Virus record (IMG/VR): IMGVR_UViG_3300027739_000018
Coordinates: 1 to 42,933 of that record
Reading direction: 5' to 3' (one strand)
Source of the DNA: a virus
DNA length: 42,933 nucleotides
Shown: one piece after another, positions 1-42,933 of the stretch
Numbering within the stretch: position 1 is the stretch's first letter
Layout: every line of letters begins with the position of its first letter
The notes under the pieces: model-generated
Database searches by the model: none
Told to the model about the DNA's origin: nothing
Seen by the model: only the letters and a program-made list of their open reading frames with translations
Translations under genes and position numbers: made by a program

Positions 1-127
1 CTCATACTCCCCCTCCCCGAACATGGAAAACGGTCTCACCACCAGCGTGTTCTTAAAACACCCCGTTAAAAGAGACGCACATGCTTTGGTAGTGGCATAC
101 CCTCCGACAGGGTTTAGTGCATCACTC
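1..127. repeat. Left copy of 127-bp terminal overlap (circle junction)
   Basis: These 127 bases are identical to the last 127 bases of the window. A gene on the minus strand reads in frame through the junction, so the molecule is circular or circularly permuted and one copy is redundant. The length equals a common assembler k-mer size, so this is probably an assembly overlap and not a packaged terminal repeat. Confidence 0.95.
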
Positions 128-465
128 TCTTTCATGGCGTTCTCTTTCAGACCGTACTCGCTTGAGGTTCCGCAATACACGAATTTCTTTAAGGGAAGTT
201 GTGCTGATAACTTGAGGAGGATGTAAGTGTTAAAAATGTTCGTGGCCACCATCTGATCCATATCCTTATGCTGGAAGTGGTGTCCGTATGCGCCTAAATG
301 AAATATATAGTCAGGTCGCGCCTCAATAAGATAATGAGTGAGAGCATCAGCGTCGGTAAATAAATCCCTAGGTATACCCGCAACCTTATACCCTTTACGA
401 AGAAGTGTGTCTGAGAGATGCCGACCCAGGAAACCGCCTAATCCTGAAACTAAGCAAGTAGACAT
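1..465 (-). CDS. SDR-type NAD(P)-dependent epimerase/reductase, N-terminal part (continues at 42806)
   Basis: This is the N-terminal 155 codons of a 274-aa protein that crosses the circle junction; the rest is at 42447-42806. It is an extended short-chain dehydrogenase of the nucleotide-sugar epimerase/dehydratase family. Visible marks are the Rossmann motif GLGGFLG (residues 8-14), the serine stretch CGTSSEYG near residue 100 and the catalytic Tyr123-xxx-Lys127 pair. At 274 aa it is close in length to CDP-paratose and CDP-abequose synthases, which reduce C4 of a CDP-3,6-dideoxy-4-keto sugar. Its neighbour is an RfbH-type dehydrase, so a C4 reductase/epimerase role is the best inference; the exact substrate cannot be read. 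The start is the ATG at 465. No convincing -10 box lies between it and the regulator gene upstream, so it is probably co-transcribed with that gene. Confidence 0.85.
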   Translation of the reverse strand, partial: MSTCLVSGLGGFLGRHLSDTLLRKGYKVAGIPRDLFTDADALTHYLIEARPDYIFHLGAYGHHFQHKDMDQMVATNIFNTYILLKLSAQLPLKKFVYCGTSSEYGLKENAMKESDALNPVGGYATTKACASLLTGCFKNTLVVRPFSMFGEGEYE

Positions 466-22469: not shown

Positions 22470-22503
22470 ATGATAGTAGAATAGAGAAGTCAGGTCAAGT
22501 TTT
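22470..22503 (-). promoter_or_regulatory. Conserved late promoter L3
   Basis: AAAACTTGACC (22503-22493), 17-bp spacer, -10 TATCAT (22475-22470). The stop codon of the glycosyltransferase upstream lies inside the element. It restarts transcription for the tail genes after the glycosylation cassette. Confidence 0.75.
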
Positions 22504-23671
22504 ACGGATATATTTCCTGTTCAAGTAGTTTGAGGAACGGAGACCAGTTCTTCTTATAGACGGTTTCGGTGTCATATTCCTCAATCATTTTCTTTCTTCC
22601 AGCCTCACCCATCTTCTTGCGATCTGCCTTAAATACCAACTCCATCTTCTCATAGATACTCATCATATCAGGAACTCCCACATAGGAAAGAAGCGGGGTA
22701 AATGACTTGTAGGCCACCTTAGTCTTGTATCCTGTTACTCCATCAATAACTAAGTCTCTCATTGCGGTAAAATCATTCGCAATTACGGGTATTCCGCAGG
22801 ACTGTGCTTCAATAATCGGTACTCCCATTCCCTCGTTGCGGGAGGGAGATAGATAGCAGTCAAATGAATTATATGCCCGAGCTAAGTCAGGGCGTTTGAT
22901 ATTAAACAGCATAGCGTATCCCGGTGGATGATAAACAAATTCATTGATACCTAGGAACTTAGCATACTCTCTTATGGGGAATCCTCCCTGTTGGTCAATA
23001 AGCGTATGGAAGTAGATAGAGGATTTGGGGTGTTTCTCATGGAATAGCTTAAAGGCATCTAGTACCTCCTGAAACGACTTACGAGGAGGGTTGTCCTTAT
23101 TGGCCGCAACCATACCAAATACAAAATGGTCGGTAGGAAGTCCTATCTCTTTTCTTATCTTCTCCTTCTCATCAATCGGTTTAAAGGTCTTTGTGTCAAC
23201 TGTCCATGGAATATAGGTAGATTGAATCCCTACCCTCAACAGCTCTCTATGGGCAAATGGTGAGGGGGCAATTACTCTATAGCATAAACGTAGTCTTTCA
23301 AGAATAGCTGGAGGAATAGGCTCATGGTCAACCGGAACATAGCAAATAAGCCTCTTGGCAGCCCTCATATGCTCAGGATTAAGTACCCATATATCCTGTA
23401 AAGTAATAGTTACATCAGACTTAAAATCAGCCCCATGTGCGATAATAGCATCTCCTCCCCACATATCCGCAATCTTAGGATAATGCCACACGCCATCTAT
23501 AAAGAGCTTGCCTCCGTCTAATCCGTAGAAATCTGTACAAGCCAACGGATAGCCCTCTTTTTGAATATTAGGAAGTATCTCTGCCATCTGTGTACCATAT
23601 CCAGATGTTGACCAAGGAGCATTTGAATTCCACATGACGCGGAGCTTCTTCTTATTTTCTTGACTTGACAT
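22502..23671 (-). CDS. Glycosyltransferase, GT4 family (GT-B fold)
   Basis: 389 aa. The C-terminal half carries SRNEGMGVPIIEAQSCGIPVI with the EX7E pair (Glu280/Glu288) that binds the nucleotide-sugar in GT4 enzymes, and the N-terminus carries WSTSGYGTQ, the usual acceptor-side Gly motif. It transfers a sugar from an NDP-sugar, substrate unknown. It overlaps the preceding glycosyltransferase by 20 bases, so the two are translated together. Lying among capsid and tail genes, it could glycosylate virion proteins or cell-surface glycans. Confidence 0.85.
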   Translation of the reverse strand: MSSQENKKKLRVMWNSNAPWSTSGYGTQMAEILPNIQKEGYPLACTDFYGLDGGKLFIDGVWHYPKIADMWGGDAIIAHGADFKSDVTITLQDIWVLNPEHMRAAKRLICYVPVDHEPIPPAILERLRLCYRVIAPSPFAHRELLRVGIQSTYIPWTVDTKTFKPIDEKEKIRKEIGLPTDHFVFGMVAANKDNPPRKSFQEVLDAFKLFHEKHPKSSIYFHTLIDQQGGFPIREYAKFLGINEFVYHPPGYAMLFNIKRPDLARAYNSFDCYLSPSRNEGMGVPIIEAQSCGIPVIANDFTAMRDLVIDGVTGYKTKVAYKSFTPLLSYVGVPDMMSIYEKMELVFKADRKKMGEAGRKKMIEEYDTETVYKKNWSPFLKLLEQEIYP

Positions 23672-24455
23672 ATTCCTTGTAGGTAAGTTTGGTATCTGAG
23701 GTTAACCAGTCCAAATAGGTAATACACTCTTGATTAAAGTAAGTACGGTAATTTAGTTTTATTCCGTTGTTTCCTCCTGCCCAATGAAGCACTTTTAAGA
23801 TTTTATCTCTTTCAGGATATCCGTCAATGCTTCTTGGAAGTATCAGCTTATCATCTCTCATTATGCACTTGTGCCACTCCCCCTTAGACCTCAATCCGTG
23901 CCAAGCACTATATTTCTCTTTCGGGTCGTATTCATCAAAGCACTTAACTTTATAGTCTCCGTAATAAGCAAGTATGTTCATCAAGTCCTGTTCTCGGTAC
24001 TGGTAGTTATGGAAGTGATAAGAGTTTACCAGTCTGTGCCAGTGTTCAATCAGACGCTTGCTGTGTACCGCAATAAAGCCTAAGTTATAGTAGTAGTGGT
24101 TGGGAATATCCAAACAAGAGATGGTACCATAGCTTGCGGTATCTACTCTGTTGTAGTTATAGACTACCCCCATGTCATAGTCTCCTTTAAGGACATAATC
24201 TAGGTTGCCCGTTATAATCTGATCGGCGTTAGTTTGAATTATAAGGTCGTAGTCGTTTCTCAGCTCATACATGATATTGGGAGTTGCGCGGTAGAGCCAG
24301 TGAGGGTCATCATATTTAGCGACTTTCTTAGCATCCCACAGGAGTAGTTCAATATCAGGATGAAACTTATTCCATGAGTTTTTCATCAGTTGGTAATACT
24401 CAGTGTTCTTAGGGTCGGTAGCAATAGAGAAAGCGATTGTGCGTAATTTGCTCAT
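23652..24455 (-). CDS. Glycosyltransferase, GT-A type (DUF5672-like)
   Basis: 267 aa. The pattern NDYDLIIQTNADQIITGNLD replaces the classical DxD region with a related Asn-Ala-Asp, and the end has KVLHWAGGNNG, as in GT8/DUF5672-like transferases. The middle has YYYNLGFIAVHS and REQDLMNIL helices typical of these enzymes. Overlaps both neighbours (ATGA with FkbM upstream). Donor and acceptor cannot be told from sequence. Confidence 0.7.
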   Translation of the reverse strand: MSKLRTIAFSIATDPKNTEYYQLMKNSWNKFHPDIELLLWDAKKVAKYDDPHWLYRATPNIMYELRNDYDLIIQTNADQIITGNLDYVLKGDYDMGVVYNYNRVDTASYGTISCLDIPNHYYYNLGFIAVHSKRLIEHWHRLVNSYHFHNYQYREQDLMNILAYYGDYKVKCFDEYDPKEKYSAWHGLRSKGEWHKCIMRDDKLILPRSIDGYPERDKILKVLHWAGGNNGIKLNYRTYFNQECITYLDWLTSDTKLTYKEYVKSRK

Positions 24456-25120
24456 GGTAGTAATATGTCAACCTTTTTAACTTTACGGATAGCAGTAAAC
24501 ATCCCTCTCGGATGGAAAGTATACTCATATCCGTGATATTCAAGTACTTCCCTCAGGTTAGGACACTGGAGGTGGTACTCTCCCACGATACAGAGTATGC
24601 GCTTTGCTACATCTCCAAAGTCATCTGCGGAGAACACTTCCTGCTCTAAGCCCTCAATATCCATCTTTAAGATGTGAACCAGCTCAATTTTCTCATCTTT
24701 CATAAACTGTGCGAGTGTTTTGGTCTTAACCGTCTCAAGTACCTTACCTACCGTAAGAAGTGATGAACCGCTTGGGTCGTTGGGATTAAATGATGAATAG
24801 ATATAACGGTCTCCCTCTGTTCCGGCAAGTGCAAGCTTATACGGCTTAATATTGGTTCTCTTGTTCTCAAGGATATTGGTTGCCAGATAATCATAGTTTC
24901 TGGTAAGCGGTTCAATGGAGTAGATTTGTTTCGCAAACTCTGACATATAAAGAGAGTAGACGCCAATACACGCTCCTGCATCAATTACTGTGCCGACTTC
25001 AGGCATGGGAGTTTCGTACCATTTCTTTCTTACGATTTCACTTATTTGTGCTTGGATAGGGAAGTCTGGACTGTGGTGTATGGAGTATTCTGTATCGTTA
25101 ACCCGTAAAGGTGTAACCAT
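24452..25120 (-). CDS. FkbM-family SAM-dependent methyltransferase
   Basis: 222 aa. SAM-binding motif VIDAGACIGVY (residues 45-55), acidic ribose-binding SIEP (about 68-71) and LKMDIEGLE (151-159) are FkbM hallmarks. FkbM enzymes mostly O-methylate sugars or secondary metabolites, so it probably methylates the glycan built by the two downstream transferases. It starts a three-gene cassette after a strong terminator. A weak promoter (TTGCAA, 17 bp, TAGATT, six bases to ATG) may serve it. Confidence 0.8.
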   Translation of the reverse strand: MVTPLRVNDTEYSIHHSPDFPIQAQISEIVRKKWYETPMPEVGTVIDAGACIGVYSLYMSEFAKQIYSIEPLTRNYDYLATNILENKRTNIKPYKLALAGTEGDRYIYSSFNPNDPSGSSLLTVGKVLETVKTKTLAQFMKDEKIELVHILKMDIEGLEQEVFSADDFGDVAKRILCIVGEYHLQCPNLREVLEYHGYEYTFHPRGMFTAIRKVKKVDILLP

Positions 25121-26480: not shown

Positions 26481-27728
26481 TTAGCTAGTCTTCTGAGTTA
26501 ATCTACCGTTTGCCGCTGGGGCTAAACAGATAAGATTAGTGAACCATGCCATCGTTGCCTGATATGTGATTTTGTCAGGGCGTCTATAGAGTGAACCATT
26601 GACGTCTTCCAACCATCCCATTTCAGATACCTGTGCGATTGTCCATGAGTCTAGATTTATGATTAAAACCTCTCCGTCTGGAGTGTTATAATCCAAGAAG
26701 ACACCGACTTTACCAGCACCGGCCGCGAACTCAAGTCCGGTCCATCCACCTAAGAGATCGGAAGTATTAACAGAACGTCTCATTGCAGTCAATATGTCTC
26801 CATATTTCTTGTAAAGAGTTGTGTTCATGAAAATTGCATACCTATCCCCTACTTGTGCGTACTTCTTAGCAGCTAAATACTGTTGCTCCATTGCGGAGAG
26901 AGTAAGAGCTTCAGAGGTCGTACCCACCTGTGGAGTCCATCCATGAGTAGATCGTGCAACATTAGCATAAGTTGACGTACCAGTTGACGTGGAAAGAGCT
27001 GCTCGGACACCTTCTACTTCGGCTGTACCGCATCCTTCTCCCGATCCATCAGCATAGTAAACTGGAGCATTAGCTGAACCACCAGCAGGGTTGGTTGCGG
27101 TGAGAGTTACTGTAGTGCCATTATTAATAGCAGAAATAGTAGCCACACTTGCACCAGCCGTACCTAGGCCCAGAATCTGTCCAGCATAAAGGTATTCAGT
27201 AGGTGATATATCTCCGTTAACCGTACCATACCAATCTGTTGATCTACCATCACCCAAACTTGCGTTCGGTTGCATAAGGTAAATCGTTGCAGCGGTTGAT
27301 CCAGCCACCTGAGAAACCACGCCGATACCGTCGTTCATATACTGTCTGTTCACGTTCTTAGCAAAATCAGAAGCAAGTGTTGAAGCTTGGAAGGTCAGTT
27401 GGTTTTCCACTGCACCTTTAGCGGTTTTGGTCGCATCCATGGTCAGCTTTGAAATATCAAATGCACCCGTAAGGATTTTGACACCAACATACGCTTGTCC
27501 GATAGAAGCACCTCCAGACGACAAAGAGTTACCGTCGTTCGCTAGATTGACGATTCCTGAGTGTCTTGAAGTACGAATAGGAGCATAGAAGTAGTTATTC
27601 ATATAGGTTACTCCTTTGTTCCTTTTTACCTGGTCAAGCAGTATTGTTTGCTTATTGAAATTGTCTTGAATAAAAGGCATTATTACCTTTTGTAGAGCGT
27701 TACTTACTGAACTTAATGTTATTGCCAT
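26481..27728 (-). CDS. Major capsid protein
   Basis: 415 aa, HK97-type candidate. It has an N-terminal arm (SNALQKVIMPFIQDNFNKQ), a FDISKLTMDATKTAKGAVENQL helix (spine-like), a Thr/Gly-rich insertion around residues 195-225 (TISAINNGTTVTLTATNP, Ig-like), a central helix (SAMEQQYLAAKKYAQVGDRYAIFMN) and a C-terminal strand set. It directly follows the scaffold gene and has an extended SD (AAAGGTGGTGA), as expected for the most abundant virion protein. Confidence 0.8.
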   Translation of the reverse strand: MAITLSSVSNALQKVIMPFIQDNFNKQTILLDQVKRNKGVTYMNNYFYAPIRTSRHSGIVNLANDGNSLSSGGASIGQAYVGVKILTGAFDISKLTMDATKTAKGAVENQLTFQASTLASDFAKNVNRQYMNDGIGVVSQVAGSTAATIYLMQPNASLGDGRSTDWYGTVNGDISPTEYLYAGQILGLGTAGASVATISAINNGTTVTLTATNPAGGSANAPVYYADGSGEGCGTAEVEGVRAALSTSTGTSTYANVARSTHGWTPQVGTTSEALTLSAMEQQYLAAKKYAQVGDRYAIFMNTTLYKKYGDILTAMRRSVNTSDLLGGWTGLEFAAGAGKVGVFLDYNTPDGEVLIINLDSWTIAQVSEMGWLEDVNGSLYRRPDKITYQATMAWFTNLICLAPAANGRLTQKTS

Positions 27729-34606: not shown

Positions 34607-35035
34607 TTATTTTATGGGTTTTTTTGTCCAATGTCTTATAATCTCAACTGGAATATCTTTTATTCCCAACATCTTCATGGCTTCAAACCTATGTTTTCCG
34701 TCTTCTATTCCATGCTTTCCCCCACCCTCAATAATAACCTTTAAAGGGTCTATAGATTTTATTCCTTTTGTTTTAATTTGTGTTATATACTCCACAATCC
34801 TATCTATATCTGGTGCAGCCTCGTGGGTTATTAGAGAACTTGCGGGTAATGTTGCAAATCTTGATTGTGGTGCGGCAGTTGCCCCAACAACCATGTCCAT
34901 TGCGTGTTTTATTAACTTTTGTCTTGATTCTGGAGTTTGACCAAGAGGCTCTTTTTTCATTTGTAAAAGTTCGTTATCTATTCCAGTCTTAGCCTTCCCA
35001 ACAACGGACATAGCAAGTTTTAGAAGATTATCCAT
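34607..35035 (-). CDS. ParB-like nuclease-fold protein
   Basis: 142 aa. The C-terminal half has the ParB N-terminal-domain pattern: IDRIVEYITQIKTKGIKSIDPLKVII, then GGKHGIEDGKHRFEAMKMLGIKDIPVEII. The DGKHRFEA element is the usual nucleotide-binding motif. Phage copies often sit near head genes. Driven by L5 with the ATG five bases from the -10, so the message is likely leaderless and no SD is present. Confidence 0.65.
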   Translation of the reverse strand: MDNLLKLAMSVVGKAKTGIDNELLQMKKEPLGQTPESRQKLIKHAMDMVVGATAAPQSRFATLPASSLITHEAAPDIDRIVEYITQIKTKGIKSIDPLKVIIEGGGKHGIEDGKHRFEAMKMLGIKDIPVEIIRHWTKKPIK

Positions 35036-35078: not shown

Positions 35079-36488
35079 TTATAATTGCTTGAGTGCCTTA
35101 TCCAGTGCCCGTATCGCATCATTCACCCCCTCAAGACCGGCTGAATAACGGATTAGATTATCTGCTACTCCTGCCTCTTCTCTTTCTTTACTGGACATTT
35201 GACTGTGCGTTGTTGTGGCGTTATGAACCCACACCGTATAGTTTCCTCCCAGATGGGTTACTTGCACTCCAAAATCAAATATCTCAGCAAACCTTTTTGC
35301 TTTACTCAAACCACCCCTTACATAGAATGACAGTAAGAATCCGTAAGCGTTTGTTCCGTCTGGCAGTTTCATCATCTTCTTTGCTATCTCATGTTGCGGA
35401 TGGGATTTTAGTCCGGGATAGTTCACCTTTTCAATCTTCGGGTGCTTTTCCAAGTACAGCGCAATTTTCATGGCGTTTTCAGACATTTGTTTTGCTCTTA
35501 GTCTGAGAGTTGCAAGTTCATCCCAGATTATCTGGGCGTTAAATGGTGATAGGCACGGACCCATATTGCGGAAGTGCCCGCCCTTAACCTTATTTGCGAA
35601 ATTCTCTCTCAGCTCAGGAATATTGGTAACTATTTTATCAAGAGCAATGATCGCCCCACCGATTGCACGGCTACTTCCGTTTGAAATCTTTGATGTTGAG
35701 TGAATAACAATGTCCGCTCCCCATTCAAATGGTCTGGTTATGGCGGGAGAGGCCATAGTAGAGTCAATAATGAGGGGAATTCCATGTGAATGGGCTAGTT
35801 TTGCCAATTCTGGAATATCAGGAACGAAAAGCATTGGATTACTGGGAAACTCTATATAGAGGAACTTGGTCTTTTTATCAATTTTCTTTTTCCACTCAGC
35901 TATATTCCACGGTTTTGTTACCCATTTTACTTTCCAGCCTGATTTTGGATAAGTAACTCCGAATAATTGCTGTGTTCCTCCGTAGACACGGTTTGATGAG
36001 ACAAAATTATCCCCTGAATTGAGAAATGCCATCGTTGACATCATTATTGCCGCCATTCCGGAGGAAGTACAGAGTCCTTGGGTAAGTCTTTTTATCCCCA
36101 GACCCTCCAGAGCCGCTATTTTTAACGCAAGATGGTCGGTGTTGGTATTGTCAATTCTGGTATAGATTTTATTCGGATCGTTTATCGTTTTATATGACAA
36201 AAGAAGGCTTCCATCAACTAAACTGTCATATGGCCCTCCTGTTGTACTGAGGAAAAGGGGGAGGGTCATGCTTTTAAGTCTCCGCATCTCTTCAATGTCA
36301 TAAAGCCCCCATAACGCTACGGTATCAAATGCCTGATTTTTGCTGTCTCTTAACTGTTGCTCTCTTCTTTTAACCGTCTCAACACTCTGTTTGAGAAAAT
36401 AGTCTTTCTCGTTTTTTGAATTGTTTATAAGTGAGAGTTCTCCCTTCAGAGATTGTTCTTTTGTTTCCAGAAAGATTGATTTTTTCAT
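35079..36488 (-). CDS. Cys/Met-metabolism PLP enzyme (cystathionine gamma-synthase/lyase family)
   Basis: 469 aa. The fold matches the trans-sulfuration PLP family: IYTRIDNTNTDHLALKIAALEG, SGMAAIMMSTMAFL, YIEFPSNPML, IIDSTMASPAI with Asp242, and HSTSK with the PLP lysine Lys267. It is about 70 residues longer at the N-terminus than usual members, and its active-site segment STSKISNGSSRA differs from the common Ser-x-Thr-Lys-Tyr form. Reactions of the family are gamma-replacement or gamma/beta-elimination on sulfur amino acids; the substrate is unknown. It overlaps the gene before it by four bases within the terminase chain, an unusual place for a metabolic gene. Confidence 0.8.
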   Translation of the reverse strand: MKKSIFLETKEQSLKGELSLINNSKNEKDYFLKQSVETVKRREQQLRDSKNQAFDTVALWGLYDIEEMRRLKSMTLPLFLSTTGGPYDSLVDGSLLLSYKTINDPNKIYTRIDNTNTDHLALKIAALEGLGIKRLTQGLCTSSGMAAIMMSTMAFLNSGDNFVSSNRVYGGTQQLFGVTYPKSGWKVKWVTKPWNIAEWKKKIDKKTKFLYIEFPSNPMLFVPDIPELAKLAHSHGIPLIIDSTMASPAITRPFEWGADIVIHSTSKISNGSSRAIGGAIIALDKIVTNIPELRENFANKVKGGHFRNMGPCLSPFNAQIIWDELATLRLRAKQMSENAMKIALYLEKHPKIEKVNYPGLKSHPQHEIAKKMMKLPDGTNAYGFLLSFYVRGGLSKAKRFAEIFDFGVQVTHLGGNYTVWVHNATTTHSQMSSKEREEAGVADNLIRYSAGLEGVNDAIRALDKALKQL

Positions 36489-36928
36489 TTGATTAAAAAT
36501 CGTGATTTCCAGTAACTTTTAAATGGGTTGGGGACATGAAAGTTGCATATACCGTAGAACACAGGATTGGGGTTTTTAAAGAACTTCCATTTTTTGTGGA
36601 CAATCCACAAGATTACAGGCACACCCCCATGCTCAAAGGATATGGAGTTCTGGTCAATGTAGACCGAGGGAAGGACTATCTTTAACATGGCTATCCCCGA
36701 CTCCTTTACATACCTCTCCTGTATACCTGCGTCTATCTGGATAAGGGAAAGATAGGGTAGGTTGTCATAGACTTGTTTGGCAACACCCTCCAATAAAAAA
36801 AACGGCAGTTTTGCCCTGTCCATGACGTCTTCTAAATAATAAAGCGCGGTGATTAGTTGTTCATGGGTAAATGGTACTTTTTCATTCAGAGTTCCATTCA
36901 GCCCACGAAGTTTCTTCTGCTTGCTCAT
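36485..36928 (-). CDS. Unknown protein, nucleotidyltransferase/LicD-like resemblance
   Basis: 147 aa. The pattern FTHEQLITALYYLEDVMDRAKLPFFLLEGVAKQVYDNL resembles N-terminal regions of phage nucleotidyltransferase-fold or LicD-like proteins, but no catalytic pair of acids is clear. C-terminus is aromatic and basic. It overlaps the terminase large subunit by 47 bases and the PLP enzyme by four. Confidence 0.4.
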   Translation of the reverse strand: MSKQKKLRGLNGTLNEKVPFTHEQLITALYYLEDVMDRAKLPFFLLEGVAKQVYDNLPYLSLIQIDAGIQERYVKESGIAMLKIVLPSVYIDQNSISFEHGGVPVILWIVHKKWKFFKNPNPVFYGICNFHVPNPFKSYWKSRFLIK

Positions 36929-38228
36929 AGGATTTTATTTGGTCTAGGAAGTAACGCTTTATCGGCGTCATTTCCTCATTTATAATAGGCCGGTAAACGG
37001 CGTTTAATTTATACACAGCTAAAGCATTTGCTATCACGATGTCATCATGTAACTCTCCCATTGCTCCATATCTTATTCTTCCTGTCGGACCCATTTGGTA
37101 GGAGAAGTTATCAAACTCAAAAGCTGTTTGCTCTAGGTTAATTAACCGTATCTTTTTTTGTTCAATCCAGATGGACAATTTTTCAACCATCTCTTTTTTC
37201 AAAGGTTCGGTTATTTTAATAGGATCAACGATAACTCCAGCCCTAAGTAAATCATCAGTTATCGGGTCTCCAAGCCCTGTTGCGTCAATCTGCACAAGCG
37301 CATTATTGTAGTGCTTTGCGGTTTGGATTATCTTCTTCTTCTGAAACGGATATTCAAGTTTATTAAACCTGTCCTGATAGACCTGATTATTCGTTCCAGT
37401 ATCAAAGACTGTTATGACAGTATAATCCCTCACTTTTGCGAGGTCTACCCCCATTATGTAGTTGTGTCCTGTTTTGGGGCTCTCTGGTATTGCGTTCATT
37501 ATCTGCCTGACCCCTCTGAATACTGACCCCTCACCCTCCAACCATTCACATAAAAGCTCCTGGTTAAATAATGACTCAGGCATTGATAACTGTGCAGCCT
37601 CAAGCTGGTCAGGGGCAATAACACCACTCTTGTCTGCTCTAAGGTAGTAAGTTGCCCATTCTATAGGATTAGCTTTTGCCTTCTGGTATAGCTCCCAAAA
37701 ATGGTTCTTTCCTTTAGGGGTGGATACAAACCAACACCATCCTCCGTTACCGCGCAAGATAGGTTGTACTACTCTATCCCATGTCTCACGCTTCATCATG
37801 GCGTACTCATCAAGTACAACTCCCACCGGTCCTGCTCCAAGCAGTCTCTCAGGCGCATCAGCTCCTTTTAATTGGAGATAGCTTCCGTTTTTGAAATATA
37901 CGATTAATTCAGCCTCGTTTTTACGCTCTATCAGGTCTTTGGGGATTATGTTGAACAACATGGCAGGATCACGCCAAACCGCATCTTTAGCCTCTGCATA
38001 GGTAGGAAAGACATGCCAGTAAGCTCCTATCCTCATTTGAGCTTGTTTGGTCTCCTCAATTATTGCTGTTGTTGTTTTTCGGGCTCGTCTGTGCCAGCAT
38101 ATCACCTTGAACCTCTGCGGGTCCTCCAGTAGTACCTGCCGTTGGTGTGGCATTAGTCGGCTCGGATCGGGGAACTGCTGGGATGAAGCCATGCCCTGCG
38201 AGTATATTGAATCGTATAGGTTCACCAT
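36882..38228 (-). CDS. terL: Terminase large subunit
   Basis: Up to 448 aa. ATPase part: CWHRRARKTTTA near residue 50 (a Walker A loop with Lys51-Thr52 but an unusual lead lacking the common Gly) and VVLDE (136-140, Walker B with catalytic Glu). Nuclease part: GVDLAKVRDYT, QIDATGLGDP and HDDIVIA supply the acidic triad. It packages DNA into the prohead. The start is uncertain: ATG 38228 has a weak AGGA upstream and overlaps terS by 173 bases; ATGs at 38192 and 38153 lack an SD. Confidence 0.9.
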   Translation of the reverse strand: MVNLYDSIYSQGMASSQQFPDPSRLMPHQRQVLLEDPQRFKVICWHRRARKTTTAIIEETKQAQMRIGAYWHVFPTYAEAKDAVWRDPAMLFNIIPKDLIERKNEAELIVYFKNGSYLQLKGADAPERLLGAGPVGVVLDEYAMMKRETWDRVVQPILRGNGGWCWFVSTPKGKNHFWELYQKAKANPIEWATYYLRADKSGVIAPDQLEAAQLSMPESLFNQELLCEWLEGEGSVFRGVRQIMNAIPESPKTGHNYIMGVDLAKVRDYTVITVFDTGTNNQVYQDRFNKLEYPFQKKKIIQTAKHYNNALVQIDATGLGDPITDDLLRAGVIVDPIKITEPLKKEMVEKLSIWIEQKKIRLINLEQTAFEFDNFSYQMGPTGRIRYGAMGELHDDIVIANALAVYKLNAVYRPIINEEMTPIKRYFLDQIKSYEQAEETSWAEWNSE

Positions 38229-38634
38229 TTTGTCCTGTAACTTCTAACTTCTGCTTAATCTTCTTTTTTGCCTCAAGTGCCGTTACAAGATATTTATGGC
38301 GCAGTTCAAGGTCGGGTATCTTTTCTCCCCGTTTATTCACCTTAGTCGCATTTAGCCCATCTGTCATCTTAATGGCGAGTTCGCTGTCTGATACTCCCGC
38401 AATCTCCAGAATAAGCGTGAAGTCAAGAGTCTTCATAAGCGCATCTGCCATATTGGCCGCATTTGAACGGTTGCGGACTCCATACGACCTCATGACCGAC
38501 TCAACCGCATTTCCGGTCTCAAGATAGTTTTTTATGAACCGTCTTTGTTTAAGGGTAAGTTTACGTTTACGCTTCTCCTCAATTTTAGAGTAGTCTTCAG
38601 CGTAGAGAGCTTTAGCCTCTTTTGTGTATGCCAC
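38056..38634 (-). CDS. terS: Terminase small subunit
   Basis: 192 aa. LTLKQRRFIKNYLETGNAVESVMRSYG followed by SNAANMADALMKT is the HTH region of phage small terminases; a coiled-coil-like oligomerisation segment follows (KYLVTALEAKKKIKQKLEV) and a low-complexity tail. It recognises the packaging site. It starts with GTG at 38634, which overlaps by one base the TAG of the TPP enzyme before it, so the sugar genes and terminase are coupled. Confidence 0.8.
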   Translation of the reverse strand: MAYTKEAKALYAEDYSKIEEKRKRKLTLKQRRFIKNYLETGNAVESVMRSYGVRNRSNAANMADALMKTLDFTLILEIAGVSDSELAIKMTDGLNATKVNKRGEKIPDLELRHKYLVTALEAKKKIKQKLEVTGQNGEPIRFNILAGHGFIPAVPRSEPTNATPTAGTTGGPAEVQGDMLAQTSPKNNNSNN

Positions 38635-39698
38635 TATTTAATAGGGGGAAACATCTCACTATTGGGTTTCCCAAACATAACTGTTAAATGAGGTTGCCAC
38701 TTGGGAGTAAAGATTTCACAGATAACCGTATCATCATATTTCATAGCGACTTTGATAGAGTTAGTATAATGTATATTATATGCTTTGGCTATTTTTTTAG
38801 TGTTTGGGAAAGAAATCCCTGAGTCTTTACTCTCTCCGATAAAGTTACCAAAGTTATTCTTTTGTGTTGTTCGGATTGCCAGATAGCCCTCATTATTAAT
38901 CACGAATATTTTGGCAGGTATTTTGTGATGAACTATGGTCTGCAACTCTTGAATGTTAAGCTGTAAAGAACCGTCTCCGATTATGGCAATAGTCTGCGCT
39001 TTAGGATTTGCCGCCCATACTCCGATTGCCGCACAGAGTCCGTATCCCATGGTAAGAGTTCCTGGGATTATGGAACGCTGGTTTTTTTTAATGCGGATGG
39101 TTTGTGCAACGGCAAATGCTGTTACTCCGCTTCCTGTGGTATAGACGTCTCCCGGTTTACTCAGTTCAGTAATCTTGGTTACCGCTCTATACATGGGGGT
39201 TTCATTAAAGTTGAAATACTTGCTCTTTAAGATAATGCACCGTCTTTGCCAGTTATAGTCTACTTGCGGATATTTGAGCTTTCTCAGTTTATTGATAAAC
39301 TCTTTCGCATCTGTCTTTAAAAATAAATCAATCTTGATGGTTTTTTTAGAATGTTCATTCCTGTCTACATCAACCACAATCTTTTTAGCTTGAGGGGCAA
39401 ACTGTCTCGGATCGTGCCCGACAAATGAGATGCACAAACGGCTTCCTATGGAGATAATCAAATCTGCCTCCTGAACCACCATATTAGCACTCCGTTGTCC
39501 TTTAGTACCTGCATGACCCATATATGAAAAATCTTTAGCTTCAAGAAGGTCAATACCCATAAGAGTTGAAACTACGGGAATCTCTTTTTCAGCAATGAGG
39601 TCTCTGAAGTCTTCAACCGCATCTGCCAATCGTATACCGCCTCCTGCAACAATAACCGGCCTCTTTGAGTTTTTTAACAGGCTTAATAAACTGTGCAT
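38634..39698 (-). CDS. TPP-dependent acetolactate-synthase-like enzyme, central and C-terminal domains
   Basis: 354 aa. It has the central domain (SKRPVIVAGGGIRLADAV, LIISIGSRL) and the PP domain with GDGS (241-244), QLNIQELQTIV and Asn268-Asn269, the thiamine-diphosphate/metal motif. The Pyr domain is the preceding ORF. Together they give about 527 aa, the length of one whole enzyme. The overlap is 16 bases and the frames differ by -1 near an A-rich run (TCAAAATGC). Related enzymes sit beside RfbH in polysaccharide clusters; YerE makes the yersiniose two-carbon branch from pyruvate. Function here is inferred. The stop overlaps the terminase small subunit start. Confidence 0.75.
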   Translation of the reverse strand: MHSLLSLLKNSKRPVIVAGGGIRLADAVEDFRDLIAEKEIPVVSTLMGIDLLEAKDFSYMGHAGTKGQRSANMVVQEADLIISIGSRLCISFVGHDPRQFAPQAKKIVVDVDRNEHSKKTIKIDLFLKTDAKEFINKLRKLKYPQVDYNWQRRCIILKSKYFNFNETPMYRAVTKITELSKPGDVYTTGSGVTAFAVAQTIRIKKNQRSIIPGTLTMGYGLCAAIGVWAANPKAQTIAIIGDGSLQLNIQELQTIVHHKIPAKIFVINNEGYLAIRTTQKNNFGNFIGESKDSGISFPNTKKIAKAYNIHYTNSIKVAMKYDDTVICEIFTPKWQPHLTVMFGKPNSEMFPPIK

Positions 39699-40204
39699 TT
39701 TGAGTTTGCAATATCCATGGGGATGTCAAGCCATATTGGTCCCGGTCTGCTACCGAGCATTTCCTTATATGCTTTATCCATGTAATTTTTAACGTCAAGG
39801 GAATCTTTTAAAACCGCCGCAAATTTAGTGATGGATGACACAATCGGGATTATTGATGCCTCCTGTACGCCAAACGACCTGGTTACTCCCATATATTTTC
39901 TTGGAGCTTGGGAAGAAATAAAAACAACGGGGGTTGAGTTCTGCCATGCCTCAAGAACTCCTGTTACTGCGTTTGATGAACCTGGTCCTGAGGTTAACAT
40001 AGCGCATCCTGGCACTCCTTTATACATGGCGTATGCCCCTGCCGCATAGGCGCAAGCTTCCTCATGATGGTTACAGATATACTTCATCTTTTTGTGAATT
40101 GCCACCGCGTCATTCAGATACATTGCCCCTCCTCCTGCGATAGTAAAGACGGTGTCTGTTCCATGACTATATATATACTCTATTATAAAATCAGCTATTC
40201 TCAT
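39683..40204 (-). CDS. TPP-dependent acetolactate-synthase-like enzyme, Pyr domain
   Basis: 173 aa. Pyr domain: VFTIAGGGAMYLNDA, CNHHEEACAYAAGAYA with Glu48 as the activating glutamate, LTSGPGSSNAVTGV and GPIWLDIPMDIAN at the end. It stops just where the central domain of an intact enzyme would begin, so it is one half of a split or frameshifted enzyme whose second half is at 38634-39698. ATGA overlap with the aminotransferase before it. Confidence 0.8.
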   Translation of the reverse strand: MRIADFIIEYIYSHGTDTVFTIAGGGAMYLNDAVAIHKKMKYICNHHEEACAYAAGAYAMYKGVPGCAMLTSGPGSSNAVTGVLEAWQNSTPVVFISSQAPRKYMGVTRSFGVQEASIIPIVSSITKFAAVLKDSLDVKNYMDKAYKEMLGSRPGPIWLDIPMDIANSKCTVY

Positions 40205-41274
40205 AGGATACTTAGTGCAACTTTTATCCGCCGTAAACCCTCCATGATATTCTCCATGCTTGTAGCGTAAGATATTCTTATATACCCCTCGCCTTTGTCT
40301 CCAAATGCGGTTCCAGGAAGTACCGCTACTCCCTCATCAAGTAAGTGCTTTGCTATCTCATCACTTGTTTTCTTGAAAAATGAGATGTTGGGAAAAGCGT
40401 AGAACGCCCCTTCAGGCTTTTTACAAGTAACCCCAGGGATACTGTTCAGGAACTCAACAATATAGTCTCTCCGCTTCTCAAATTCAAACTTCATTTTCTT
40501 AACGGAGTTTTGATCGCCTCTTAATGCTTCAAGTGCCGCATACTGGGTAAATGTTGCGGTACAGCCTACGGTGTGGGTAAGGAAACAGTCAATCTTTTCA
40601 GTCATCTCTTTGGGGAAAACCATATACCCTATCCTCCACCCTGTCATGGCGTAGGTCTTTGAAAATCCGTTTACTAATATGGTCTTATCTTTATTTGAGA
40701 GGCCGTAGTAGCTCTCGTAATCGCCGTAAGAAAGTTCAGAGTACATCTCATCCGTTATGACATAGGTGTCGTGCTTTTTTATTGCTATCATCTCGTTATG
40801 ACCTAGCACCTCACCAGTCGGATTGCTAGGTGAGTTAAGGATGATGAGTTTGGTCAGGTTGGTTATCTTATCCTGTGGTACACAATCAAAATAATCAATA
40901 AGAGCCCGATAGGTAGGAAATCCCGGGTTGGGGTAGTGCACATGGTCTCCCTTATTAAGAAGTGCCGCCATAGCAACAAATATCGCGGTCTTACCTGACG
41001 GGGTGATTGCTACCTGTTCAACCGATACCTTATGCTTTTTGGCTATCTCGTTTCTCAACTCAAATATCCCCAAAGGAGAAGTATATCTTGTTTTTCCTGA
41101 GATGATTGCGTCTATCCCCGCATCAACAATATTCTTTGGAGTCGGGAAGTCAGGTTGCCCTATCTCAAAGTGGATAATGCTTTTTCCCATTGCCTCCAGT
41201 TGATTTGCCTTATTCAACACAACATAGGCACCTTCGGGGGTGAGCTTGTTGAGACAATCACTTACTTTTGACAT
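40201..41274 (-). CDS. Class I/II PLP aminotransferase (aspartate/alanine type, subgroup Ib)
   Basis: 357 aa. Motifs in order: IGQPDFPTP, SGKTAIFVAM, NSPSNPTG, ITDEMY with Asp175, NGFSKTYAMTGWRIGY with the PLP lysine Lys206, and a RISYATS end with the carboxylate-binding Arg. It exchanges amino groups between amino and keto acids. In this cluster it could supply pyruvate or another keto acid to the TPP enzyme, or act on a sugar-derived keto group; neither is shown by sequence. Overlaps the dehydrase before it by 17 bases and the next gene by four. Confidence 0.85.
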   Translation of the reverse strand: MSKVSDCLNKLTPEGAYVVLNKANQLEAMGKSIIHFEIGQPDFPTPKNIVDAGIDAIISGKTRYTSPLGIFELRNEIAKKHKVSVEQVAITPSGKTAIFVAMAALLNKGDHVHYPNPGFPTYRALIDYFDCVPQDKITNLTKLIILNSPSNPTGEVLGHNEMIAIKKHDTYVITDEMYSELSYGDYESYYGLSNKDKTILVNGFSKTYAMTGWRIGYMVFPKEMTEKIDCFLTHTVGCTATFTQYAALEALRGDQNSVKKMKFEFEKRRDYIVEFLNSIPGVTCKKPEGAFYAFPNISFFKKTSDEIAKHLLDEGVAVLPGTAFGDKGEGYIRISYATSMENIMEGLRRIKVALSIL

Positions 41275-42460
41275 ACTCTATTATTTTGTCCGACATATAA
41301 TCTATGTCATCAATTGATAACCCGGGGTACACTCCTACCATGAAGGAGTTGAACATGACCTTATCTGCGTTGTTCAAATCCCATACTATTCTTTTTTTAA
41401 TATTTCGGTAGGCGGGTTGGCGGGTTATGTTTCCTGCGAAGATAAGTCTGGTCTGAACGCCGTTTTCCTCTAAGAACTTCGTTATCTCCCTGCGGGTGAA
41501 CTTCTTGGTCTTAATGGTCATCGGAAATGAGAACCAGCTGGGGTCGCTTCCTGACAGAACATGGGGAAATTCAAATATGTCCTGAAGTCCCTCTAGGTTT
41601 TTAAGGAGTCTTTTATAATTGCGTTTGCGGATGGTTACGAATTGGTCTAGTTTTTTCAACTGTTCAACGCCGATTGCCGCCTCTATCTCCGTTGGCTTTA
41701 AGTTATACCCTATTTTACTGGTTATGTATTTGTGATCGTATTCATGGCCGTCAACCCTGAAGCTGAAACGTGCCTGACACGCCCCCATGTGCCTTTTCTC
41801 ATCCCCCCTACAGTAACAATCCCTCCCCCAATCTCTGTACTGTCTAATTATTTTCTCCTGAAGTTTGTTCTGGTAACAGATAGCCCCTCCCTCCCCCATG
41901 GTTATATGATGGGCGGGGTAGAAAGAATAGGTGGACAGGTCTCCGAAACTACCCAACTTCTGTCCGTTATATGTACTCCCCAGAGCATCACAGCAATCCT
42001 CTATTAAAAGTAAATTATGTCTCTTACAGAAGTCGGCAATGTACTCAATATCCGCAGGGTTACCTAGGGTATGGGCGAACATTACGGCCTTAGTCTTGGG
42101 AGACAGGGCGTGTCCTAACTGGGAGTAGTCAATGTTGAGGGTACTGTCGCAATCTAAAAATACGGGAACTAAATTATTCTGGATAATGGGGTTAACGGTG
42201 GTGGGAAAAGCAAGGCCACAGGTTATAACCTCGCTTCCCGCAGGCAGCTCAAGAACTGTCAGGGCTAATAAGTTGGCAGAAGAACCTGAATTGGTAAGAA
42301 CCGACCCGTTCATTCCGATATAGTTGGCAAGTGTTGTTTCAAATTCCTCCCCCTTATCCCCCAACCCGAACCACCCCTTATCTATCACCGCCTTAGCGGC
42401 GTTTCGTTCTTTCTCATCCATTACTCCACCTGCGTACTGGAGACGCTTAGTAGTAGTCAT
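41258..42460 (-). CDS. rfbH: RfbH-type CDP-4-keto-6-deoxyglucose-3-dehydrase (DegT/DnrJ fold)
   Basis: 400 aa. The active-site segment SFYPAHHITMGEGG has His185 where DegT/DnrJ aminotransferases have the PLP lysine, the hallmark of 3-dehydrase E1. Cys157, Cys215, Cys217 and Cys228 give C-X57-C-X1-C-X10-C; the known E1 motif for the [2Fe-2S] cluster is C-X57-C-X1-C-X7-C, so only the last gap differs. RDWGRDCYC, GHEYDHKYITSKIGYNLKPTEIEAAIG and FAGNITRQPA also match RfbH. With an E3 reductase (not in the window) it makes CDP-3,6-dideoxy-4-keto-glucose. It overlaps the epimerase by 14 bases and the aminotransferase by 17. Confidence 0.9.
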   Translation of the reverse strand: MTTTKRLQYAGGVMDEKERNAAKAVIDKGWFGLGDKGEEFETTLANYIGMNGSVLTNSGSSANLLALTVLELPAGSEVITCGLAFPTTVNPIIQNNLVPVFLDCDSTLNIDYSQLGHALSPKTKAVMFAHTLGNPADIEYIADFCKRHNLLLIEDCCDALGSTYNGQKLGSFGDLSTYSFYPAHHITMGEGGAICYQNKLQEKIIRQYRDWGRDCYCRGDEKRHMGACQARFSFRVDGHEYDHKYITSKIGYNLKPTEIEAAIGVEQLKKLDQFVTIRKRNYKRLLKNLEGLQDIFEFPHVLSGSDPSWFSFPMTIKTKKFTRREITKFLEENGVQTRLIFAGNITRQPAYRNIKKRIVWDLNNADKVMFNSFMVGVYPGLSIDDIDYMSDKIIEYVKSK

Positions 42461-42933
42461 AGTTACGTTTCAAACCACATCTCACCCCGTAGATAGGGGT
42501 AAAACCGATACTTTTAAGACGGGTAGTGTTTGCCACCCAGTGGTTTGTGTCGTAAGTACGGAGACCGGAGACTTCTTTGTAGTTTAGTTTTTTTCCCGCA
42601 ATTTGTTCGTAAAGCTTAACAATCTCTAAATTGGAATATTGCTTACCCATTCCGATGTTAAGCGCCCCTGTTAAATCACTCTCTGCTGCCCTTACCATGG
42701 CCTCTGCCGCATCAACCACATATATCCAGTCATGTTTGACCTCCGGCACTAAGTTCATCACTTCCCCTGACTTGAGAGACTTGATAAGGGTGGGCATAAA
42801 CCTCCACTCATACTCCCCCTCCCCGAACATGGAAAACGGTCTCACCACCAGCGTGTTCTTAAAACACCCCGTTAAAAGAGACGCACATGCTTTGGTAGTG
42901 GCATACCCTCCGACAGGGTTTAGTGCATCACTC
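42447..42933 (-). CDS. SDR-type NAD(P)-dependent epimerase/reductase, C-terminal part (joins 1-465)
   Basis: C-terminal 119 residues of the 274-aa protein that starts at 465; the part from 42807 on is also present at 1-127. It shows HDWIYVVDAAEAM and GALNIGMGKQYSN, the usual substrate-domain motifs of nucleotide-sugar epimerases. Read on the circle it is intact, so it is not truncated. It overlaps the RfbH-type gene by 14 bases. Confidence 0.85.
   Translation of the reverse strand, partial: SDALNPVGGYATTKACASLLTGCFKNTLVVRPFSMFGEGEYEWRFMPTLIKSLKSGEVMNLVPEVKHDWIYVVDAAEAMVRAAESDLTGALNIGMGKQYSNLEIVKLYEQIAGKKLNYKEVSGLRTYDTNHWVANTTRLKSIGFTPIYGVRCGLKRNYDYY
42807..42933. repeat. Right copy of 127-bp terminal overlap
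   Basis: Identical to 1-127. See the left copy. The unique genome is positions 1-42806. Confidence 0.95.

Follow-up and report, generated by a model that had tools for sequence, protein, structure and literature searches.

A putative branched-sugar pathway in the late operon of a phage, probably for virion glycosylation

Branched sugars made by YerE-like enzymes are known from bacterial lipopolysaccharide (LPS), and transketolase-made ones have been proposed, unproven, from natural-product clusters (PMC12247030). According to the same review, YerE adds activated acetaldehyde from pyruvate to cytidine diphosphate (CDP)-3,6-dideoxy-4-keto-glucose, and ErwE favours longer hydroxylated 2-oxo acids (PMC12247030). 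Searches of the open-access literature turned up no previous account of a branched-sugar pathway borne by a phage. The stretch of DNA analysed here, called the window, is the whole 42,933-bp IMG/VR phage record IMGVR_UViG_3300027739_000018, which carries a block of sugar-nucleotide genes next to its terminase genes. As in the yersiniose A pathway of Yersinia pseudotuberculosis (RfbH/E1, YerE, YerF), one operon encodes an RfbH-type 3-dehydrase, a YerE-like carboligase dependent on thiamine diphosphate (ThDP) and a short-chain dehydrogenase/reductase (SDR). The window set differs from that pathway in its location on a phage, in a ThDP enzyme that is compact and made of two polypeptides, and in an SDR of a phage-lineage family rather than an established YerF; an aminotransferase is added, and RfbF, RfbG and E3 were not found among its larger proteins. 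It is reasonably probable that the block provides the sugar for a glycosylation system shared across a phage lineage, as a late branched-sugar pathway that probably serves virion glycosylation.

Glycans have been reported on the major capsid protein of the mycobacteriophages Che8 and Rita (PMC11256854, citing Freeman et al. 2023), and the glycosyltransferases are phage-encoded there as here. That report describes only glycosyltransferases, whereas in the window a putative sugar-nucleotide pathway accompanies them.

Organization and enzymes of the block

The window has a direct repeat of 127 nt at its ends (1-127, identical to 42807-42933), which indicates a circular or terminally redundant genome assembly. 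The repeat is exact and the record therefore closes as a circle of 42,806 bp. The genes of the block lie on the minus strand in the order SDR, RfbH, class I aminotransferase, ThDP N half and ThDP M+C half, followed by the terminase small subunit terS (38056-38634; PF03592 8e-6, phrog_51) and the large subunit terL (36882-38228; Pfam and phrog matches, TerL profile), which is the marker of the lineage. The sequence-only reading had described five frames overlapping stop to start and running into terS and terL; all of them are present, with successive overlaps of 14, 17, 4, 16 and 1 nt from SDR/RfbH to ThDP M+C half/terS. The Pfam assignments of the block (PF01370 5e-32, PF01041 5e-92, PF00155 8e-54, PF02776 6e-32, PF00205 9e-33, PF02775 5e-26) are far beyond chance, and its GC content of 42-44% is near that of other late genes. 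The cassette is not a chimera, because in relatives, too, a homologous SDR and a ThDP enzyme occupy this position before terS.

The ThDP enzyme is encoded by an N-terminal (PYR) half (39683-40204, minus strand, 173 aa; PF02776 6e-32) and a central plus PP half (M+C; 38634-39698, minus strand, 354 aa; PF00205, PF02775). Both frames are open and keep the catalytic Glu and the GDG...NN motif, respectively. The joined halves have their best PDB match in 8rph (253 bits vs 200 for plant acetolactate synthases). The related phage G004 has an intact homologue of 583 aa that is ~52% identical to the window enzyme (56% for the N half over its N part, 51% for the M+C half), and this protein scores 333 bits with 8rph vs 228 with acetohydroxyacid synthase (AHAS). 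The 8rph entry is JanthE, a YerE-like enzyme which adds acyl units derived from 2-oxo acids to ketones (PMC12188165). JanthE (8rph, 8rpi, 8rpj) is the closest solved structure to both phage enzymes; unlike them it has a CDG motif where they keep GDG, and it is a single chain of 619 residues whereas the window enzyme is split.

A maximum-likelihood tree separates the phage and rfbH-linked bacterial ThDP enzymes from seven acetolactate-synthase-like sequences with 100/100 support in a small sample (15 rows, YerE itself not included). The Miltoncostaea row of a first tree was a wrong-frame open reading frame (ORF) and was left out. The YerE-like assignment made in the sequence-only reading is upheld by the 8rph match and the tree, and the grouping with true acetolactate synthases that it had named as evidence to the contrary was not recovered. 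In both Pfam and NCBIfam the models that match the halves are generic ones for acetolactate synthase, as would be expected if the block held an ordinary acetolactate synthase and auxiliary genes of amino-acid metabolism. However, the best NCBIfam models of this type give 123.9 and 185 bits on the two halves against cut-offs of 538 and 738, and no ilvN- or ilvC-like gene adjoins them. A plain acetolactate synthase is ruled out by these scores together with the tree, which makes an origin of the block in amino-acid metabolism extremely unlikely. When the ThDP protein was compared with isolated phages and plasmids, the matches were less than 60% identical, and the annotated ones are acetolactate synthases. 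The pathway class (branched-sugar type) is well supported.

The RfbH-type CDP-4-keto-6-deoxyglucose 3-dehydrase (41258-42460, minus strand, 400 aa) scores 502.4 bits with the NCBIfam RfbH model, above the equivalog cut-off of 423. Its best solved relative is 3bcx (E 3e-114), the E1 dehydrase of Y. pseudotuberculosis. A His replaces the lysine that binds pyridoxal phosphate (PLP) (SFYPAHH), and the CC...CYC...C motif, presumably the ligands of a [2Fe-2S] cluster, is conserved in the alignment to 3bcx. The earlier assignment to the true 3-dehydrase type is borne out by the cut-off and the 3bcx match. The homologue in a second related phage, G016, keeps the His and has no Cys motif. Pfam scans found no RfbF, RfbG or E3 among the larger ORFs of the window, in agreement with the earlier claim that the first steps and E3 are absent from the phage. 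The partner reductase of RfbH would have to come from the host, as no E3 family was matched among the larger window proteins scanned.

The association of rfbH with a YerE-like gene is also seen in bacteria. In 398 Pseudomonadota genomes just five places match the ThDP enzyme at E of at most 1e-70; three of these are in rfbH clusters, and two have a pair of genes for 4-hydroxy-2-oxovalerate aldolase and acetaldehyde dehydrogenase. The most complete (L136) holds a reductase of the ferredoxin type, a nucleotidyltransferase at the place of rfbF, CDP-glucose 4,6-dehydratase, rfbH and the ThDP gene, along with acetaldehyde dehydrogenase and 4-hydroxy-2-oxovalerate aldolase. In L140 the ThDP protein is the nearest one (46%), and its gene is accompanied by rfbH, the aldolase and a dehydrogenase-like gene. 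In the window rfbH is two genes away from the ThDP enzyme.

The same type of gene set, which the sequence-only reading suggested looking for in other phages, is found in the sister phage G016 together with a donor-making aldolase pair. Its order is acetaldehyde dehydrogenase, 4-hydroxy-2-oxovalerate aldolase, ThDP N half, ThDP C half, SIS, GHMP kinase, nucleoside triphosphate (NTP) transferase, RfbH homologue and SDR. Both the dehydrogenase and the aldolase pass NCBIfam subfamily cut-offs, the aldolase passes the equivalog cut-off too, and the two are the donor-supply pair of the bacterial rfbH clusters. G016 resembles clusters of the erwiniose/caryophyllose type (ErwE, MMAR_2332) in having this pair, as found beside the YerE-like enzymes and rfbH in L136 and L140. 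The window, in contrast, has no such pair and has instead a class I aminotransferase (40201-41274, minus strand, 357 aa; aspartate-aminotransferase-like, PF00155 8e-54, 2z61 5e-70). One guess is that the aminotransferase fills the donor role in the window by feeding pyruvate to the ThDP enzyme.

The SDR is one intact gene of 825 bp (274 aa) that spans the circle junction and runs from 465 to 1 and then from 42806 to 42447. The 5' part (1-465, minus strand) contains the Rossmann GxxGxxG and the YxxxK motif (Y123xxxK127), and the 3' part (42447-42933, minus strand) completes an extended SDR of the epimerase/reductase type dependent on nicotinamide adenine dinucleotide (PF01370 5e-32), and relatives encode homologues at the corresponding position. 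The reading as a frame cut short at its 5' end by the edge of the window is rejected, as the gene continues unbroken through the 127-bp repeat. The protein is an extended SDR, and as far as the NCBIfam equivalog models show, which match it only weakly, it does not fall into the YerF, RfbJ or RfbS families, against which the sequence-only reading suggested searching it.

From these genes a pathway can be proposed. The host would provide CDP-4-keto-6-deoxyglucose, from which RfbH would remove the 3-OH with a host electron donor. The ThDP enzyme would then decarboxylate a 2-oxo acid, for which the aminotransferase is a possible source, and a branched sugar would arise when it attaches the resulting acyl unit to the 4-keto sugar at C4; ThDP-dependent carboligation onto the 4-keto sugar is quite likely. 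The SDR would reduce the new side-chain ketone. Transfer of the sugar, most likely to the virion, and its methylation would be the work of glycosyltransferases and an FkbM methyltransferase.

Two types of ThDP enzyme in related phages

A scan with a TerL profile gave nearly forty related loci with TerL identity of at least 50%. Relatives with enough sequence upstream of terS usually have an SDR homologous to that of the window and a split mini-transketolase, with which this SDR family usually travels in these phages. The split mini-transketolase is present in 24 of 34 related records. The YerE-like enzyme is present in three (the window, G004 and G016) and never together with the transketolase. 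Among the 19 records of at least 30 kb, the window included, 14 have the transketolase, three the YerE-like enzyme and none both. The absence of overlap has a probability of ~0.01 under random placement by a hand calculation that is uncorrected for relatedness or incomplete contigs. Two records of this size have neither enzyme; one of them, G018, is more distant (TerL 43%), and the GT-B gene described below was not found there. The intact ThDP gene of G004 is located between virion genes and scaffold/capsid genes, inside the head operon.

These distributions suggest that in related phages the split mini-transketolase may take over the part of the YerE-like enzyme and carry out an equivalent C-C branching, with the SDR and the glycosyltransferases kept. 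It is tentatively proposed that the whole lineage makes C-branched sugar nucleotides in its late operon, with two unrelated types of ThDP ligase swapping, and glycosylates its virions. The lineage enzyme could instead be a pentose-phosphate transketolase that feeds a heptose pathway (GmhA-, HddA- and HddC-like), in which case the window would have acquired an unrelated dideoxysugar cassette. Some relatives do add GmhA-like (SIS), HddA-like (GHMP kinase) and NTP-transferase genes, and in several of them these adjoin the transketolase. However, the transketolase occurs without heptose genes in L047, L059 and L060 (8-10 kb of upstream sequence), G016 has heptose genes with a YerE-like enzyme and no transketolase, and the two ThDP enzymes never co-occur. 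This explanation is therefore unlikely.

Scans with single proteins of the block were less productive. The RfbH-based scan of viral contigs gave one relative and the scan based on the ThDP C half gave none, because single-protein patterns reach close kin only; the TerL profile and record-level searches worked. Matches of the RfbH scan in genome contigs were mostly other sugar aminotransferases. Contig L020, binned with 'bacterium ADurb.Bin212', is phage-like (tail-type proteins by eye) and encodes a homologue of RfbH together with an RmlD-like SDR and a protein resembling glycosyltransferases. The IMG/VR contig L003 is a similar case.

Glycosyltransferases downstream of the capsid gene

The window also has genes which may attach the sugar, and these are encoded with the virion genes. 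The major capsid protein (26481-27728, minus strand; phrog_14242 3e-19) is 56-70% identical in relatives. It is followed on the same strand by an FkbM-family methyltransferase (24452-25120; PF05050 2e-16), which has homologues in many relatives and is a candidate for glycan O-methylation, a GT8-fold glycosyltransferase (23652-24455) and a GT-B glycosyltransferase of group 1 (22502-23671; PF00534 4e-16). The GT-B gene belongs to the core of the lineage, being present in 14 of 18 related records, and a pair of glycosyltransferase genes is retained after the major capsid gene in most relatives. The GT8-fold protein has 267 aa, no Pfam hit and an AlphaFold model with a predicted local distance difference test (pLDDT) score of 93.5; its Foldseek matches include GT8 enzymes and the capsid glycosyltransferase of chlorovirus PBCV-1. 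The Asp-rich, NxG, EQ and HxxGG motifs are conserved, and the protein occurs in 29 viral loci. The modelled fold suggests a likeness to capsid glycosylation in PBCV-1 (2p73, 2p72), although that is a eukaryotic virus with another genome context and the identity is 12%.

The lineage-wide slot and the glycosyltransferase/FkbM module were not noticed in the sequence-only reading, and together they are the main support for decoration of the virion. From gene position and conservation alone, the chance that the virion is the target is put at about even. The same branched-sugar chemistry could make a sugar for the host surface (LPS, capsule or S-layer), where it might block superinfection or change the receptor. 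Known YerE-like enzymes work in LPS synthesis (PMC12247030), and the nearest bacterial relatives are in clusters of the surface-polysaccharide type. This use is somewhat unlikely, as the genes are in the late virion/terminase operon with the glycosyltransferases directly after the capsid gene, and no membrane glycosyltransferase, flippase or acetyltransferase family was matched among the window proteins scanned. Some phages glycosylate their DNA, and the window carries DNA methyltransferase genes, so that the sugar might be made for DNA modification. This is very unlikely, since no base-hydroxymethylating enzyme was found among the window proteins scanned against Pfam, the glycosyltransferase genes are grouped with the capsid gene, and the GT8 fold of one product is close to that of protein-glycosylating enzymes.

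If the branched-sugar pathway is correct, enzymes for rare sugars could be drawn from a new source, a phage lineage in which such chemistry is encoded next to the terminase and capsid genes. The pathway would explain the substrate of the conserved glycosyltransferases, and the exchange of one ThDP superfamily for another would be an example of non-orthologous replacement that can be tested. Should the sugars be located on virions, particle glycosylation would be tied to dedicated sugar synthesis.

The split ThDP gene and neighbouring genes

Several findings speak against the proposed pathway. RfbH is restricted to the window and G016 among related phage records, and the precise sugar is therefore not the same in all of these phages. 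In the relatives that have heptose genes, the transketolase may do no more than provide sedoheptulose 7-phosphate for them. The closest solved homologues of the SDR in structure and profile matches are epimerases and 4,6-dehydratases, not side-chain reductases. The ThDP halves of the window overlap by 16 nt in different frames, and the enzyme is without ~28 linker residues and a C-terminal segment present in the intact homologue; judged from these features, it could be decaying. A single chain with an intact linker and C-terminal segment is a usual, non-catalytic feature of YerE-like enzymes, which is lost in the window and intact in G004.

It is conceivable that the cassette is a passenger whose ThDP gene was recently broken and whose operon is no longer productive, and the frame change, the linker loss and the start of the C half at an internal ATG would all fit such a history. 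However, the ThDP enzyme of G016 (L070, L150) is divided at the domain boundary where the window enzyme is, its two parts lying ~1.5 kb apart, and therefore the two-chain form recurs. The lineage transketolases are split too, and both window halves are open with their catalytic motifs. Loss of function in the window is thus quite unlikely. A pure assembly or frameshift artefact is weakened as an explanation by the distance between the G016 halves, but the window copy may still have decayed.

In G016, long G-rich degenerate repeats (ggtgaggtgcggt...) lie between genes at 920-1050 and 1520-1740 of L070, in the stretch that separates the ThDP halves. Positions 1-800 of L150 contain ORFs rich in degenerate short peptide repeats (QAWVKAHQAW...) that are open in more than one frame.

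The window also has additional genes between the terL block and the portal gene. A PLP enzyme of the Cys/Met-metabolism lyase/sulfhydrylase type (35079-36488, minus strand; PF01053 4e-96) is similar to methionine gamma-lyase/O-acetylhomoserine sulfhydrylase, and it was not seen between terL and the portal gene in relatives. Speculatively, it could supply 2-oxobutanoate to the ThDP enzyme. A ParB/SerK-like protein (34607-35035) is encoded in the same interval. Directly after terL is a 147-aa protein (36485-36928) that is kept in most relatives and has a predicted LicD/FKRP-like nucleotidyltransferase fold (pLDDT 90). The acidic residues expected in its active site are unconserved in the alignment; therefore, it may not be catalytic.

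A promoter scan of the SDR region gave a number of sites not above that in shuffles. One promoter-like site on the minus strand (962-933; TTGACA-18-TATGAT, 11/12, extended TG) is just upstream of the 142-aa ORF preceding the SDR and is a possible start of the leftward operon.

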